This document shows positions 6,658 to 64,000 of a stretch of 64,000 bases of DNA, piece after piece. Source of the stretch: Phocaeicola dorei (GTDB lineage Bacteria > Bacteroidota > Bacteroidia > Bacteroidales > Bacteroidaceae). Position 1 is the stretch's first letter; each line of letters opens with the position of its first letter. A program made the position numbers and the translations under genes. The stretch spans positions 837,501 to 901,500 of the forward strand of contig NZ_CP046176.1 in the NCBI RefSeq assembly GCF_013009555.1. The letters are read 5' to 3'. The notes beneath the pieces were generated by a model that was given only the letters and a program-made list of their open reading frames with translations, searched no databases and was not told the origin of the DNA.

Positions 6658-7793
6658 AATACTATTTGATAGTAGGCGAGGCATCAGGCGATTTGCACGC
6701 ATCTAATTTGATGTGTGCCTTGATACAGGAAGATCCGGAAGCAGAATTCCGTTTCTTTGGCGGGGACTTGATGACGGCTGTTGGTGGAACGCGGGTGAAG
6801 CATTACAAAGAACTGGCTTATATGGGTTTTATCCCGGTGTTGTTGCATTTGCGTACTATCTTTCGGAATATGAAAGAATGTAAGCAGGACATTGTTCGTT
6901 GGGCTCCTGATGTAGTGATTCTGGTGGATTATCCTGGCTTTAACCTGAAAATAGCCGAGTTTATAAAGAAGCAGACGCAAATACCTGTCTACTATTATAT
7001 TTCTCCTAAAATATGGGCTTGGAAAGAGTATAGGATTAAAAATATCAAGCGGGATGTGGACGAATTGTTTTCTATCCTGCCTTTTGAGATTGAGTTTTTT
7101 GCCGGACATCAGTACCCTGTTCATTATGTGGGTAATCCTTGTGTAGATGCAGTGGATGCTTATTGTAAGAAACATCCGGATGGGTTTCCGGAATTTGTGG
7201 CGGATAATGGTTTGTCCGAAAAGCCTGTTATCGCATTGTTGGCGGGCAGCCGGAAACAGGAAATCAAAGACAACCTACCGATGATGCTGGAGGCTGCTGC
7301 TCCGTTTACCAAAGATTATCAATTGGTGTTGGCAGGGGCTCCGGGGATGGACCCTGCCTATTATGCGGGTTATATAAATCCGAATGTACCGGTTAAAATC
7401 ATTTTCGGACAGACTTACAGGCTGTTGCAGCACGCGCAGGCGGCATTGGTGACTTCGGGTACTGCAACTTTGGAAACAGCTCTTTTCCGTGTTCCTCAAG
7501 TGGTGTGTTACTATACTCCGGTAGGGACGTTTATCGCTTTTCTTCGCCGGCATATTCTAAAAGTGAAATATATTTCGTTGGTTAATCTGGTAGCCGATAA
7601 GGAAGTGGTGCGTGAACTGGTAGCCGATACGATGACGGTAGATAATGTACGTTCGGAGTTGGAAGCTCTTCTATATAATAAGGTATATAGGAATAAGATG
7701 TTGGAAGAGTATGATCGTATAATTCAAATTTTAGGTCCGGCAGGAGCTTCGGAGGCAGCGGCACGCAAGATGGTGGCCTTACTGAAGAAATAA
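6654..7793 (+). CDS. lpxB: Lipid-A-disaccharide synthase
   Basis: GT19 glycosyltransferase that joins UDP-2,3-diacylglucosamine and lipid X into the lipid A disaccharide at the inner membrane. Family motifs are present: GEASGDLHASNL at the N-terminus, YYISPKIWAW in the middle, LLAGSRKQEIKDNLP at the start of the second Rossmann domain, and TSGTATLETALF near the nucleotide-sugar site. The 379-aa length is standard. It starts inside the surE stop codon, a gene pairing common in this phylum. No clear intrinsic terminator follows. Confidence 0.97.
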   Translation: MKYYLIVGEASGDLHASNLMCALIQEDPEAEFRFFGGDLMTAVGGTRVKHYKELAYMGFIPVLLHLRTIFRNMKECKQDIVRWAPDVVILVDYPGFNLKIAEFIKKQTQIPVYYYISPKIWAWKEYRIKNIKRDVDELFSILPFEIEFFAGHQYPVHYVGNPCVDAVDAYCKKHPDGFPEFVADNGLSEKPVIALLAGSRKQEIKDNLPMMLEAAAPFTKDYQLVLAGAPGMDPAYYAGYINPNVPVKIIFGQTYRLLQHAQAALVTSGTATLETALFRVPQVVCYYTPVGTFIAFLRRHILKVKYISLVNLVADKEVVRELVADTMTVDNVRSELEALLYNKVYRNKMLEEYDRIIQILGPAGASEAAARKMVALLKK

Positions 7794-58065: not shown

Positions 58066-58527
58066 TTATAATTCATTATATTGCATACTATACATATCAA
58101 AACCGTCAGCCCAATAATTGCGTTTGATTTCATTCAGTGTGAATCCTTGCTTTTCATAGAATTTATATGCTAATTGCGAGGTTCGGACTGTTATTTTTTT
58201 GATACTGGGAATAGCCTTTAAAACCTCAATTCTGTATCTTAAAAGCTTTTTACCTAAAGATTTGCCTTGATAGTCGGGATGCATAATATCCCAACTTATT
58301 TTTCCAATGGTTCTTTTTTCTGCGAAATTTATCCCGCCGCATCCAACCACTTTCCCGTCAACGAGCAAGACATAATAGAGCTCTATTTCTTTATCCAAAT
58401 AATTGCTCAAATCATTAACTTCCTCTTTTGCAAAGAAGTTGGGTGTGTTTAATTTAATTAAATTCATGACAACTTCTTTATCTGTCGTCAAATATTCTCT
58501 AATTACAATTGAATTATCTTGTGTCAT
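58066..58527 (-). CDS. GNAT-family N-acetyltransferase
   Basis: 153-aa acetyltransferase. The acetyl-CoA motif is ISWDIMHPDYQGKSLGKKLLRYRIEVL (Q-G-K-x-L-G), followed by ITVRTSQLAYKFYEKQGFTLNEI (motif B; YEKQGF). The N-terminus includes YYVLLVDGKVVGCGGINF. Substrate unknown. A weak -7 box TATCTTTA is at 58553-58560 (minus strand). It is the last gene with host-like composition before the GC-rich integrase region. Confidence 0.9.
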   Translation of the reverse strand: MTQDNSIVIREYLTTDKEVVMNLIKLNTPNFFAKEEVNDLSNYLDKEIELYYVLLVDGKVVGCGGINFAEKRTIGKISWDIMHPDYQGKSLGKKLLRYRIEVLKAIPSIKKITVRTSQLAYKFYEKQGFTLNEIKRNYWADGFDMYSMQYNEL

Positions 58528-58926: not shown

Positions 58927-59961
58927 ATGAGATCGACATTCAAAGTTTTGTTTTATCTGAAATGCAATGCCCCGAAAAAGGACGGGCTTATTCCCGTCAT
59001 GTGCCGTATCACGATAAACGGCAAAATAGCCCAGTTCAGTTGCAAGCTGGACGTGGAGGAGAAGTCGTGGAACGTGGAGTTAGGCCGTGTCTCCGGCCGC
59101 AGCATCGCTGCACAGGAGGCCAACCGTATGCTGGATAAAATCCGTGTAGGTATCAACCAAGCCTACCAGAAGATCGCCGACCGGGATAATTATGTTACCG
59201 CCGAGAAAGTGCGCAACGCCTATCTCGGTTTGGGGATGAACCATGAAACACTACTGGCGGTATTCCGTCAGCACAACGAGGATTACGGGAAGCAGGTGGG
59301 CAAGCTCAAAAGCCCGCGCAGCTATTGGAAATACTGCACCATGTACAAACACCTCTCGGAGTTCGTCGAAAAGCGGTATAAGGTCAGCGACATCGCGTTC
59401 AAAGAGCTTACTCCGGCATTTATCACGGACTTCGAGTTGTTCCTGCGGGTAGAAAAGAATCACTGCAACAACACGGTCTGGTCTTATATGATGCCGTTCC
59501 GGAAAATAATCTATATGGCCGTCAATAACGGTTTGTTGCAGCGCGACCCGTTCTTCGCGTACAGCATCACGAAGGAGGAGACCAAACGGGGTTTTCTGAC
59601 CCAAGAGGAAATCACACTCCTGATCAACGGCACATTCAAAAAGAAAAGCTACGAGCTGATCCGCGATCTGTTCATCTTCTGCACCTTTACGGGTTTGAGC
59701 TGGACGGATATGGCGAACCTGACGAAAGCCAACCTGCGCACCTCGTTCGACGGGCATCTGTGGATCGACACGAACTGCCAGAAAACAGGCGTCGAAACGA
59801 ATATCCGGTTGTTGGACGTTGCCAGACACATCATCGAGAAATACGACGGCATGGCCGAAAGGGACAAACTGCTGCCAGTTCCCTGTTACGCCAACTGCAA
59901 GAACGGCATCAAAGCAATAGCGAAGAAGTGCGGTATCGAAAAGAACGTCACGTGGCATTAA
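58927..59961 (+). pseudogene. Truncated CTnDOT-type tyrosine recombinase (integrase)
   Basis: 344-aa N-terminal and partial catalytic part of a Bacteroidota integrase. The arm-binding domain covers residues 1-95 (FKVLFYLKCNAPKKDGLIPVMCRITINGK), the SAM-like core-binding domain about 105-210, and the catalytic domain begins near 222 (RGFLTQEEITLLI). The Arg I position reads FTGLSWTDM (S258), as in IntDOT, where Ser replaces Arg. K286 (QKTG) is present. The frame stops directly after TWH (H344), the His of the HxxR box, so the second Arg, the last His/Trp and the nucleophilic Tyr are missing. About 60 residues are lost and the protein should be inactive. GC is far above its neighbours (38 of 60 bases in 59041-59100). 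Confidence 0.88.
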
Positions 59962-60252: not shown

Positions 60253-61641
60253 ATGGTTATAAGAATGATAAAATTGACATCACTATTTGTCAATACGGAA
60301 AATTATAGATTTGAGCCTTTATCATCACAAAAAGAAGCAATAGATAAGATGATAGAGGATCAAGGGGATAAATTATATTCTCTTGTGGACGATATTGTAA
60401 CCAATGGTCTTAGCCCCGTCGATTTGATTATTGTAACACCCAACGAAGACAGCAATAAGTATGTTGTACTTGAAGGAAATAGGCGAATAACGTCATTAAA
60501 ACTATTAAATAATCCGACACTAATAGATGACAAATACTCTCCTTTAAGGAAGAAATTTCAGAAATTACAAAAAGAAAAACCTAATGCTATTTCTGAATTG
60601 AAGAATATTGCTTGTGCTGTTTTTGAAACCCCTACTGAAGCTGATATATGGATAAAACGTAAACACTCTGGAGAACTTAATGGTATCGGAACTGTCACTT
60701 GGAACGCTCAACAAAAGCAAAGATTCGAGGAGAAGACAGAAGGAAAATCATCAATTCCATTGCAAATTATCACTTTGCTGAAATCACAAGAAGAGGTTTC
60801 TGATACGATTAAGGATTCATTATCTAAATTAAACATTACCAACTTGCAACGTTTGATGTCGGATCCATATGTTAGAGAACACCTTGGCTTGGAAATTAAC
60901 AATGGAATTTTAGTTTCAAAGGTTAAAGTGTCCGAAGTCATTAAGGGGCTTTTAAAAGTTGTTACAGACATTCTGAATCCGGAATTCAAAGTTTCTGATA
61001 TCTATAACAGAGAAAAAAGAAAGCAATATATTGATAATTTTGACAAGAGTCAAAAGCCAGATTTGTCTAATGAAGCATCTGAACAATGGAGTGTTCAAGA
61101 TATTGAAAACAATAAAGAACAAGCATCAAGAAATAGCGAGAAACAAGAAATAAAAGGGGATAAAAACAGGAAAACAAGAAACAGAGGAGCTTTAGTGCCC
61201 AAGTCTTTGAATTTACATATCAGTAACCCGAAAATTAATAAAATTTTCGAGGAGCTAAAACATGTTCAGGTCAAGACATGCCCCAATGCATCTTCAGTCC
61301 TTTTAAGAGTATTTTTAGAACTATCTGTTGATGCCTATTTGGAGAAATTTGATTTAGTAAGAAACAATGCTATTACAGCTTGTTCTTCTGGTGAAAGTTT
61401 GCAAGGGAAAGTTGGTAAAGTCTTAAATCATATGACCCAATTAGGAACAATGAGTAATGACTTATCAAAGGGCATAAGGTCTGAAATAAATGATAAAAAT
61501 TCAGTTCTTTCAATCGAATCATTGAATGCATATGTTCATAACGAGTTTTTCTACCCTAAAGCAGATAATTTGATTACTGGATGGGACAACATAGAAAGTT
61601 TTTTTATCCAATTGTGGGAATCAATAAAAAATAAAGAATAA
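60253..61641 (+). CDS. ParB/Srx-fold protein with EGNRR motif, first gene of a putative defence operon
   Basis: 462 aa; start at 60253 or at the in-frame ATG 60265. The N-terminal about 120 residues match a ParB-like nuclease/CTPase fold: IVTNGLSPVDLIIVTPNED, then KYVVLEGNRRITSLKLLNN. EGNRR (74-78) takes the place of the GERR box of ParB. A helical middle follows, then a very polar Lys/Asn/Glu-rich linker (about 270-320, NKEQASRNSEKQEIKGDKNRK). The helical C-terminal domain contains LNAYVHNEFFYPKADNLITGW. No ParB HTH is visible, so it is not a chromosome partition protein. AT-rich (17 of 60 G+C in 60301-60360). It is 4 bp upstream of the methyltransferase gene. Role unknown. Confidence 0.82.
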   Translation: MVIRMIKLTSLFVNTENYRFEPLSSQKEAIDKMIEDQGDKLYSLVDDIVTNGLSPVDLIIVTPNEDSNKYVVLEGNRRITSLKLLNNPTLIDDKYSPLRKKFQKLQKEKPNAISELKNIACAVFETPTEADIWIKRKHSGELNGIGTVTWNAQQKQRFEEKTEGKSSIPLQIITLLKSQEEVSDTIKDSLSKLNITNLQRLMSDPYVREHLGLEINNGILVSKVKVSEVIKGLLKVVTDILNPEFKVSDIYNREKRKQYIDNFDKSQKPDLSNEASEQWSVQDIENNKEQASRNSEKQEIKGDKNRKTRNRGALVPKSLNLHISNPKINKIFEELKHVQVKTCPNASSVLLRVFLELSVDAYLEKFDLVRNNAITACSSGESLQGKVGKVLNHMTQLGTMSNDLSKGIRSEINDKNSVLSIESLNAYVHNEFFYPKADNLITGWDNIESFFIQLWESIKNKE

Positions 61642-61645
61642 TATT

Positions 61646-62506
61646 ATGGAATTTCTATCACCTTTAAGATACCCTGGCGGTAAGGCTAAAGTTGCTGATT
61701 TCGTACAATGCTTAATCAAAGAAAACGCATTGCTCGATGGCACTTATGTTGAACCATATGTTGGAGGTGGTTCCGTTGCATTATCTTTGCTCTTTAATGA
61801 ATATGTCAGCGACATACATATAAATGATAAGGATATATCTATTTATGCCTTTTGGTATAGTGCCTTAAATAACGTGGATGCTCTCTGCAAGATGATAAAG
61901 GATACCCCTTTAAATGTTGAAACTTGGTTTAAACAAAAAGAAATTCAATCCAATAAAGAGAATTCTGACTTGTTAGAATTAGGCTTTTCTACATTCTTCT
62001 TGAATAGGACTAATCGCTCAGGAATCTTGAAAGCAGGAGTCATTGGCGGTTATGACCAAACTGGAAATTATAAGATTGATGCAAGATTCAACAAAGAAGA
62101 TTTGATAAAAAGGATTCAACGTATAGCAGATTATGCAGATAGAATCCATTTAACAAATGAAGATGCTGTTTCTTTAGTACAACGGTTAAAAAATGAATTA
62201 CCGTATAATACGTTATTTTATTTAGACCCACCATACTATGTAAAAGGTAAAGGACTTTATCTGAATTACTATAATGATACAGATCATCAAAATATAGCTA
62301 ACACTATAAGTGAGATTGCAAATTGTAAGTGGATTGTCTCTTATGATAATGTACCATTCATAACCAGCCTATATTCAAAATATAGACAGCAATGTTTTGA
62401 ATTGAATTATAGTGCGAGTAATTCCGGGAAAGGTAAAGAGATAATGGTATTTTGCGATGGCATAGTTATCCCCAAACACAAACTATTTAACCATTCTACA
62501 AAGTGA
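61646..62506 (+). CDS. Dam-type N6-adenine DNA methyltransferase (D12 class)
   Basis: 286-aa class D12 (Dam/DpnIIA-like) methyltransferase. The N-terminal SPLRYPGGKAKV (residues 5-16) and VEPYVGGGSVALSLLF (35-50) bind SAM. The catalytic motif LDPPYYVKGKGLYLNYY has DPPY at 194-197. FFLNRTNRSGIL is the typical D12 block. Many relatives methylate GATC, but the target cannot be read from sequence. It is placed between the ParB-fold gene (4-bp gap) and the ATPase gene (GTGA overlap), so it belongs to one polycistronic unit. It could be the protective arm of a restriction-like system. Confidence 0.93.
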   Translation: MEFLSPLRYPGGKAKVADFVQCLIKENALLDGTYVEPYVGGGSVALSLLFNEYVSDIHINDKDISIYAFWYSALNNVDALCKMIKDTPLNVETWFKQKEIQSNKENSDLLELGFSTFFLNRTNRSGILKAGVIGGYDQTGNYKIDARFNKEDLIKRIQRIADYADRIHLTNEDAVSLVQRLKNELPYNTLFYLDPPYYVKGKGLYLNYYNDTDHQNIANTISEIANCKWIVSYDNVPFITSLYSKYRQQCFELNYSASNSGKGKEIMVFCDGIVIPKHKLFNHSTK

Positions 62507-64000
62507 AAATAACGCACATTCATATCGAAAGATTTCGAGGATTTCAAAATGAAGATTTTGAAGTAGGCTCTTTGTTAACAGCAATTGCAGGGCAAAACGG
62601 AACTCAAAAGTCAACATTACTTGGTATTATAACACAAACTTTCACTCTTAAGACAGAAGATTCTATGAGAGTTGAAAAGCCCTTGTGTGGTGGTAGTTAT
62701 ATTTCCGCATTCAAAGATAAGTTTAGGTTATCACCTACTTTTGATAAACCAAAAGGTCATGAATGGACTATTTCCTTTGATGCAGGAATGGATGATTTTA
62801 CTGTTGAAAGTATCAAACGAACAGGAGATCCTAATGTCCGTTTTTGGAAAAAAGGAGCTAGGCAAGAAGGAGATGGATACATTTCCTTCCCCACAATCTT
62901 TTTAAGTCTAAAGCGATTAGTTCCAGTGGCAGAGGAAGCTAAAATCATTACAGATGATACATTATTAACGCAAGAAGAACTAAATGAGTTTAAGCAATTG
63001 CATAATAAAATTCTAATAGCACAAACTCCCATTTCTTCCGCAACAACAATCACATCAAAAAACAAGCAATCTATAGGTGTATCCACAGAACTATACGATT
63101 GGAATCAAAACTCTATGGGGCAAGATAATTTAGGTAAAATTATCTTGGCGTTATTTTCTTTTAAAAGATTACATGACAAATATCCCCGACAATACAAAGG
63201 CGGTATTTTGGCCATTGATGAGATGGATGCAACAATGTATCCCGCATCCCAAGTAGAGTTGTTAAAGGTTTTGCGCAAATATGCATCTAAGTTGAATTTG
63301 CAAATTTTATTTACAACTCATTCAATGTCTCTTCTTAAGGCAATGGATGATTTAGTTCAAGAAGTAACTAAAAAAGAAGAAACAGCCAATCAAGCAAAGA
63401 TCCTTTACCTTAAGAAGGTTGATGATAAGATTGCAATTAAACAGGGCGTGAACTTCAAAGGCATTCAATTGGATTTAAATGTTGTTGCAGAAGGAAATAA
63501 TCGCAAGAAAAACAGAATTACAGCATATACGGAAGACAAGGAAAATATCTTATTTGTAAAAGCTATTTTAAAGAGCAAGGCTTTTGTGTTGGATTTTGTG
63601 GATGTAACATTACCATGTTCAACATTAATGGAACTTGTAACCAAAAGAGTGCCTGCTTTTATATATCCATATTCTATTGTTATATTAGATGGGGATGTTA
63701 GAATGAATAAAAATGATCTCAGGAAAATCAACAATGCAGATAACATTTTGATTTTACCGGGAAATAAGTCTCCAGAAAGACTATTGGCCTCTTATTTGTA
63801 TAATCTATCTGATGTAGACCCATTATGGTCTAAGATTGCAGATGGGTACACAAAACAATTCTGTTTCCGAGAGTATTCCATGGAACAAATAAATGCAGGA
63901 GGTGAACTGGGGCGCCAAAATGCAAAAAAATGGTTTAATAGCCAATTAGAATATTGGGGGCGAAACGGTTGTAAAGTCCTTAATCCTTTTTTAAGTTCAA
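62503..64000 (+). CDS. OLD-like AAA ATPase with TOPRIM-like C-terminus (partial, runs off the window)
   Basis: The frame begins at GTG 62503, overlapping the methyltransferase stop (GTGA), and is open to the right edge (499 codons seen). The N-terminus THIHIERFRGFQNEDFEVG is the usual start of RecF/OLD-type ATPases. Walker A is GQNGTQKST (30-38), an ABC-signature-like NSMGQDNLGKI follows, Walker B is ILAIDEMDA (D239, E240), and the H-loop is FTTHS. The C-terminal half looks TOPRIM-like, with E344 in YTEDKENILFVKAIL and D396/D398 in IVILDGDVR. That layout matches OLD-family nucleases, including Gabija GajA, though it is no close match to any I can name. It was probably missed by ATG-only gene calling. 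Confidence 0.85.
   Translation, partial: MKITHIHIERFRGFQNEDFEVGSLLTAIAGQNGTQKSTLLGIITQTFTLKTEDSMRVEKPLCGGSYISAFKDKFRLSPTFDKPKGHEWTISFDAGMDDFTVESIKRTGDPNVRFWKKGARQEGDGYISFPTIFLSLKRLVPVAEEAKIITDDTLLTQEELNEFKQLHNKILIAQTPISSATTITSKNKQSIGVSTELYDWNQNSMGQDNLGKIILALFSFKRLHDKYPRQYKGGILAIDEMDATMYPASQVELLKVLRKYASKLNLQILFTTHSMSLLKAMDDLVQEVTKKEETANQAKILYLKKVDDKIAIKQGVNFKGIQLDLNVVAEGNNRKKNRITAYTEDKENILFVKAILKSKAFVLDFVDVTLPCSTLMELVTKRVPAFIYPYSIVILDGDVRMNKNDLRKINNADNILILPGNKSPERLLASYLYNLSDVDPLWSKIADGYTKQFCFREYSMEQINAGGELGRQNAKKWFNSQLEYWGRNGCKVLNPFLSS

Follow-up and report, generated by a model that had tools for sequence, protein, structure and literature searches.

The three genes discussed here, which we call A, B and C, lie on the + strand at the end of a 64,000-nucleotide stretch of the Phocaeicola dorei genome (the window; G000:C1:837501-901500 in source genome coordinates), and the last of them continues beyond it. 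Genes A and B match the two components of PD-Lambda-5, a known anti-phage system, and they are followed by C, whose product is predicted to be an ATPase-TOPRIM nuclease of the OLD type. We consider it fairly probable that the locus is a PD-Lambda-5 system with a second effector, in which A and C are separate effectors restrained by the mark of the methylase B. The pair C-B, found in many other places, has in our estimate an even chance of being an undescribed and widespread class similar to restriction-modification (RM), in which a Dam-type methylase would have an ATP-gated OLD/TOPRIM nuclease as its restriction enzyme and would itself be the common "licence" for plug-in effectors (C, the A of PD-Lambda-5, or both).

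Gene content of the operon

The operon consists of three open reading frames (ORFs), with a gap of 4 bp between A and B and an overlap of 4 bp between B and C, as had been reported in an earlier note on this DNA. That note regarded the trio as uncharacterised and could not match it to any named system, which was wrong for two of the three genes; since A and B are named by PD-Lambda-5 models, we rejected the trio as a wholly new system. Gene A (60253..61641, + strand, 462 aa) matches the PADLOC model PDLC03998 (PD-Lambda-5_A) over residues 1-456 with E 2.5e-165. It presents a predicted ParB/Srx-fold N-terminal domain and a HEPN-like C-terminal domain (residues 322-462; 61216..61638, + strand) with invariant R352, E356 and H429, and the motif VLEGNRR (residues 72-78; 60466..60486, + strand) is invariant in 47 aligned A proteins. 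No NCBIfam match was obtained for A, and the two matches given by Pfam were both below the cut-offs.

Gene B (61646..62506, + strand, 286 aa) encodes an N6-adenine methyltransferase of the Dam/D12 class (Pfam PF02086, E 1e-19), and it matches the PADLOC model PDLC04018 (PD-Lambda-5_B) over residues 2-281 with E 1.7e-126. The catalytic motif of such methyltransferases, DPPY, is found at 62225..62236 (+ strand) and is present in 167 of 168 B ORFs. It should be noted that the B of an E. coli C-B pair scores as PD-Lambda-5_B nearly like that of the window (E 5.8e-124) and, therefore, B alone is not diagnostic of PD-Lambda-5.

Gene C (62503..64068, + strand) has a GTG start and encodes 521 aa. Its end, which the earlier note had proposed to look for past position 64000, was found 68 bp beyond the window, at position 7569 of the locus labelled L002, a label that spans the end of the window and the DNA beyond it. 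The AlphaFold2 model (predicted local distance difference test 80.1) had the OLD nuclease 6p74 of Thermus scotoductus as top Foldseek hit (E 7.2e-15), and the effector of Retron-Eco8 and Gabija GajA were also among the top hits. Predicted structures and their comparison with known folds support both the ParB fold of A and the OLD-like ATPase-TOPRIM fold of C, which the earlier note had named. There was no Pfam TOPRIM match in C, and no PD-Lambda-5 model appeared among the best 25 of its 79 PADLOC hits. The acidic residues E344, D396 and D398 (63532..63696, + strand), of the type that is catalytic in the TOPRIM family, do not vary in two alignments of C proteins, one of 20 and one of 11. The Walker A motif usually has Gly before Lys. 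In C it reads GQNGTQKST (62590..62616, + strand), with Gln preceding Lys; the possibility that this change denotes a dead ATPase was rejected, as the relatives have Q, S or G at the same position.

Linkage of A with B and of C with B

Few relatives of A or C appeared in the scans of close relatives, the order and the class, and their prevalence was consequently estimated from other collections. Gene A was found in 6 of 295 genomes of the class, the source genome included. Among 393 genomes of the order, C was found only in the source genome; the cut-off, E 1e-30, was strict, and weaker relatives may have been missed. Among 40 relatives the matches to C outside the source genome were only partial ATPase matches, with E 6.5e-5 or weaker. 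A megablast search of the trio against phages gave no match, and a profile search against the sequences of the PDB gave nothing but a designed protein (E 0.28).

Two collections were scanned with a profile of A: genomes, taken at one per species, in which 80 of 81 loci were kept, and viral contigs, with 49 loci. The threshold for the A ORF was 100 bits, with a profile (A4) built partly from the same loci; 18 of the genome loci and 33 of the viral ones fell below it. B was beside A in 58 of the 62 genome loci above the threshold (57 within 110 bp), the other four being at a contig edge and none lacking B, and 15 of the 16 viral loci also carried B, with the remaining one at a contig edge. The labels of the A-B contigs included Bacteroidota, Pseudomonadota, Bacillota, Gemmatimonadota, Actinomycetota and archaea.

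The viral contigs were also scanned with a profile of divergent C proteins, and 80 of 144 relatives were kept. B was adjacent to C in 74 of them (71 within 110 bp), five were at a contig edge, and one (L230) had no B. Clustering at 70% identity gave 36 clusters. B was present in 34 of them, and L230 and a locus at a contig end made up the remaining two. An A hit was also present in only five of the 80 loci. The adjoining B reached at least 100 bits in every one of the 58 A-B genome loci and the 74 C-B viral loci. L230 carries a 673-aa ATPase ORF (L230:4641-6662), and it is the sole C relative of the scan with room for a B-type methylase yet without a recognisable one.

The same association was observed in plasmids and phages, where B adjoins C in all seven plasmid records opened (eight hits) and in all four phage records opened (eight hits). 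The plasmid records belong to Acinetobacter, Fusobacterium, Staphylococcus, Nicoliella, Psychrobacter (two) and Planococcus (one, with C in pieces), and the phage records to two Streptococcus phages, Citrobacter phage phiNP, in which the methylase beside C lacks annotation, and Vibrio phage ValB1MD-2, in which C and B are convergent and A is present too. E. coli has such pairs too, the first beside a site-specific integrase and the second within an integrating conjugative element. In their annotation, an "AAA family ATPase" or an "ATP-dependent nuclease" accompanies a "DNA adenine methylase". With a coverage of the two-gene query of 80% or more, the first pair, whose B is the one compared above with PD-Lambda-5_B, was found in 85 of 5426 genomes and the second in 2. 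These results show that C is not a random neighbour of B, and B seems to be a shared hub, a methylase family common to the A-B and C-B modules.

Gene orders and partner exchange

The loci were classified by gene content, leaving out L003, L150, L162, L163, L104 and L235 (duplicates or broken) and those without a B of at least 100 bits. Hits of A below 80 bits were dropped, except in L149/L234 (39 bits), which are the same contig, and the locus L020 was counted as A-B despite a stub of C. The 168 classified loci comprised 80 B-C, 73 A-B and 15 A-B-C, the last representing 14 distinct loci. Two modules, A-B and C-B, thus use one methylase family, and the trio combines both. The 73 loci without C and the 80 without A indicate that A and C are generally not in need of each other and that both go with B; A as an obligate partner of C was accordingly rejected.

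The trio presented five arrangements. The order A-B-C is that of Bacteroidales contigs, including the window, and of two viral contigs, L224 and L149, the latter having a very divergent A; C-A-B was observed in Paludibacter, C facing B-A in the Vibrio phage (with A in two ORFs), A-C-B in a viral contig, and in the remaining arrangement C-A faces B. The earlier note had proposed a single three-component machine in which the ParB-fold protein A senses or loads, B modifies and C cuts. The tight operon, with its 4-bp spacing and overlap, and the recurrence of the trio in distant elements would agree with such a machine, but the gene order is not conserved and both pairs are common alone, so that neither effector needs the other in general. 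That each pair stands alone favours parallel effectors over one machine, which we judge distinctly unlikely, and the role of A as sensor or loader of the nuclease is not favoured either.

Quick trees were built on de-replicated sets (56 of 93 C proteins and 107 of 165 B proteins); both are unrooted and, for this reason, gains and losses are not separated in them. In the C tree the trio label is polyphyletic, with five changes, at least four of them forced by supported branches. In the B tree the methylases partnered by A and by C are intermixed, with 11 changes for the presence of A and 17 for the presence of C. The clearest exchange was observed between L158 (C-B, on a Psychrobacter plasmid) and L107 (A-B, on a viral contig), whose B proteins are 83% identical and whose DNA matches over B only. 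Judging from such relatives, the methylase seems to stay in place while the two attackers are exchanged.

The close kin of the cassette were found in Bacteroidales contigs. The DNA of the Hallella locus L020 is 98.6% identical to that of the window through A and B and for a further 148 bp into C (about 49 codons), where C breaks off, and an IS21-type IstB gene (PF01695) is located just downstream of the break. In L021, C is split into two ORFs. L025 and L026 carry an A that is 84% identical to that of the window (in the scan) and a C of another lineage, with 27% identity to that of the window by BLASTP (29% for L025 in the alignment). In these four loci the ORFs of A and B are full length.

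A plainer explanation would be that the A-B pair is an ordinary PD-Lambda-5, which alone provides the function, and that C is an unrelated passenger, an anti-phage gene lying downstream by chance. In its favour, C is missing from the A-B loci (73 of 168), and two close kin of the window have a C that is truncated (L020) or split (L021). However, C itself is near-constantly beside the same methylase family (74 of 80 loci), the trio recurs in the five orders described, and C overlaps B by 4 bp in six trio loci of the type of the window. We consider the passenger explanation unlikely.

In L149, an AbiLi-like ATPase (PADLOC E 1.8e-63) and a DUF3226 protein are encoded upstream of the divergent A and of B-C (L149:4154-5850); it is possible that they represent a further effector in the same run.

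Asymmetry of decay

Decay was counted by ORF length in loci, all of them found via A or C, whose B reached 100 bits or more. A broken C beside a full-length B was observed in six loci, and an intact C beside a short B in none of 87. Likewise, there was no intact A beside a short B in 76 loci, and one further B was cut by a contig end. Both A and B were short in two loci, and eight had a short A with a full-length B, five of which (L116, L119, L121, L127 and L144) may represent a naturally shorter A family. As the neighbouring B reached at least 100 bits throughout the main scans, no damaged B was concealed there by the threshold on B. In the loci classified, a damaged B was never seen beside an intact A or C. 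This asymmetry fits B as a protector, with L230, where C has no recognisable B, as the exception.

Such a pattern could also arise from a selfish maintenance module of the toxin-antitoxin kind, in which A and C would kill the cells that lose B and so stabilise a mobile element, with phage defence as a by-product. The occurrence of these genes on plasmids, an integrating conjugative element, phages and viral contigs agrees with this idea. So does the observation that, in the loci counted, every B accompanying an intact A or C is of full length unless a contig end interrupts it, L230 apart. We regard it as the least probable of the explanations considered here, and highly unlikely.

Comparison with known systems

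A and B match the two PADLOC families of PD-Lambda-5 nearly over their full length, and they are adjacent, on one strand and in the same order. The difference is the third gene: here C follows, and the PADLOC models of the system that we met cover A and B only. PD-Lambda-5 (PD-lambda-5, Vassallo et al. 2022) blocks phages in E. coli, and the authors' host for this system had the mrr region deleted (PMC9519451). Given the role of Mrr, such a deletion is what one would choose if the methylase were active, and it fits an active adenine methylase. In the sections of the literature covered by our search, no mechanism for PD-Lambda-5 was found beyond the description "RM+Abi".

Like the nucleases of the OLD family, C would have an N-terminal ABC-type ATPase and a C-terminal TOPRIM domain with conserved acidic residues. 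Its partner is different, being a Dam-type methyltransferase instead of the UvrD-like helicase of Gabija or the reverse transcriptase of retrons. A review of the family covers single genes, Gabija, retrons and PARIS, and the words "methyltransferase" and "methylase" are absent from the main text as available to us (PMC10568477). Regarding Gabija (class 2 OLD), the UvrD-like helicase GajB is not beside C; its neighbours are B and, outside the mobile island described below, a PF02544 protein. Regarding retrons (class 3 OLD), no reverse transcriptase family was present in the Pfam hits of A, B, C and the integrase ORF of the island, and there was no Rfam match at gathering score within the island.

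PARIS (AriA/AriB) likewise combines an ATPase with a TOPRIM nuclease, while C is one fused protein in a single ORF. The best AriA score of C in PADLOC was 63 bits, over part of the protein, compared with 194 bits for the AriA-like gene located 4.4 kb downstream, and its score with the AriAB model was only 38 bits. HEC-04/IbfA are single fused ATPase-TOPRIM proteins similar in length to C (IbfA, 518 aa; PMC12111858), and the accessible part of that source names no methylase beside ibfA. The score of C with the HEC-04 model was 47 bits, with the best stretch limited to residues 4-44. Type II restriction-modification systems likewise have a stand-alone adenine methyltransferase beside a nuclease, and here the nuclease is a predicted ATPase-TOPRIM protein.

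Two other reports are related to this arrangement, as far as their available text goes. A 2026 paper on BREX, close in spirit, describes OLD-TOPRIM effectors beside modification systems as a backup (PMC12839542). In addition, one paper tested two genes of P. aeruginosa, an OLD gene and a methylase (PA1939 and PA2735, not neighbours by gene number), and found them to be independent (PMC6945700).

Proposed mode of action

The earlier proposal of a defence operon that couples DNA modification to a predicted ATP-dependent nuclease is supported by the gene content, the predicted folds and the recurrence of the genes. As to its novelty, the A-B part did not stand, as it matches a described system; for the trio no described system was found, and the partners are conserved. 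In the reading that we favour, PD-Lambda-5 with a second effector, B would methylate adenine at its target in the host DNA, and we infer that this mark would keep A and C quiet until unmarked phage DNA enters the cell. C would then act as an ATPase-gated TOPRIM nuclease, which most likely nicks or cuts DNA. A would most likely bind DNA through its ParB head, a nucleotide- and DNA-binding module, and kill or arrest the cell through its HEPN-like domain. A and C would be alternative or stacked effectors running in parallel.

The mobile island and its surroundings

The operon is part of a mobile island that was delimited by blastn against the corresponding region (L256) of G011, which came out as the nearest relative when 24 genomes of the genus were searched. 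The two genomes match on both sides (98.5% and 97.0% identity in the flanks), with the alignment ending at L002:2061 and restarting at L002:7656; G011 is without the segment L002:2062-7655 and has 216 bp in its place. Thus, an integrase remnant and the genes A, B and C form a 5.6-kb island (window 58561..64154, no strand assigned), the last part of which lies past the end of the window. The AT-richness mentioned in the earlier note was confirmed, with G+C contents of 33% (A), 33% (B) and 34% (C); the flanks have 40% and 42%, and the integrase ORF has 51%.

The integrase next to the operon is broken, as had been claimed. This tyrosine integrase remnant (58927..59961, + strand, 344 aa) has the arm-binding and SAM-like domains (Pfam PF17293 and PF13102), and no catalytic integrase domain was matched by Pfam in the ORF at E values up to 1. 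It ends in ...VTWH, and we take this final H to be that of the HxxR motif. A Pfam-supported tyrosine integrase ORF that ends at or just after an HxxRH-like motif was observed beside the cassette in six of the 11 Bacteroidales loci examined, and the integrase ORF of L020, with a Pfam match below the cut-off only, ends alike (a seventh case); the loci concerned, with this ORF upstream of A, are the window, L020, L021, L023, L025, L026 and L029. Furthermore, the left-end sequences seem related in several Bacteroidales loci, as judged by eye. This suggests a recurring junction inside integrase genes. The absent end of the integrase was not found by a motif search up to 2.5 kb downstream of C in eight loci. 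In L027 and L028 there is a tRNA-Leu (caa) about 0.3 kb upstream of A (L027:9607-9693 and L028:6584-6670) and, therefore, those cassettes may occupy a tRNA integration site.

Just beyond the left end of the island, a GNAT-family acetyltransferase is encoded on the - strand (window 58066-58527). On the other side, the neighbour of C beyond the island is the PF02544 protein, which is steroid-dehydrogenase-like. PARIS-like genes, one AriA-like ATPase (PADLOC E 9e-58) and one AriB-like (E 1.3e-76), lie at L002:12002-13840 (about 68501-70339 on the window scale), starting about 4.4 kb after the end of C.

Meaning of the findings

The A-B pair is already known as PD-Lambda-5, and OLD nucleases are known in several contexts; for the C-B module and the trio, no description was found in the portions of the literature covered by our search. 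Where a tool assigns B to PD-Lambda-5_B, a C-B locus may be missed or mislabelled. A role is now proposed for the pair "AAA family ATPase + DNA adenine methylase" that is carried by many viral contigs and by the 85 E. coli genomes mentioned above. A methylase family common to PD-Lambda-5 and to an OLD-type nuclease module would offer a direct test of how self is discriminated from phage, and the findings suggest a general design in which one modification enzyme may shield the host from several interchangeable effectors.

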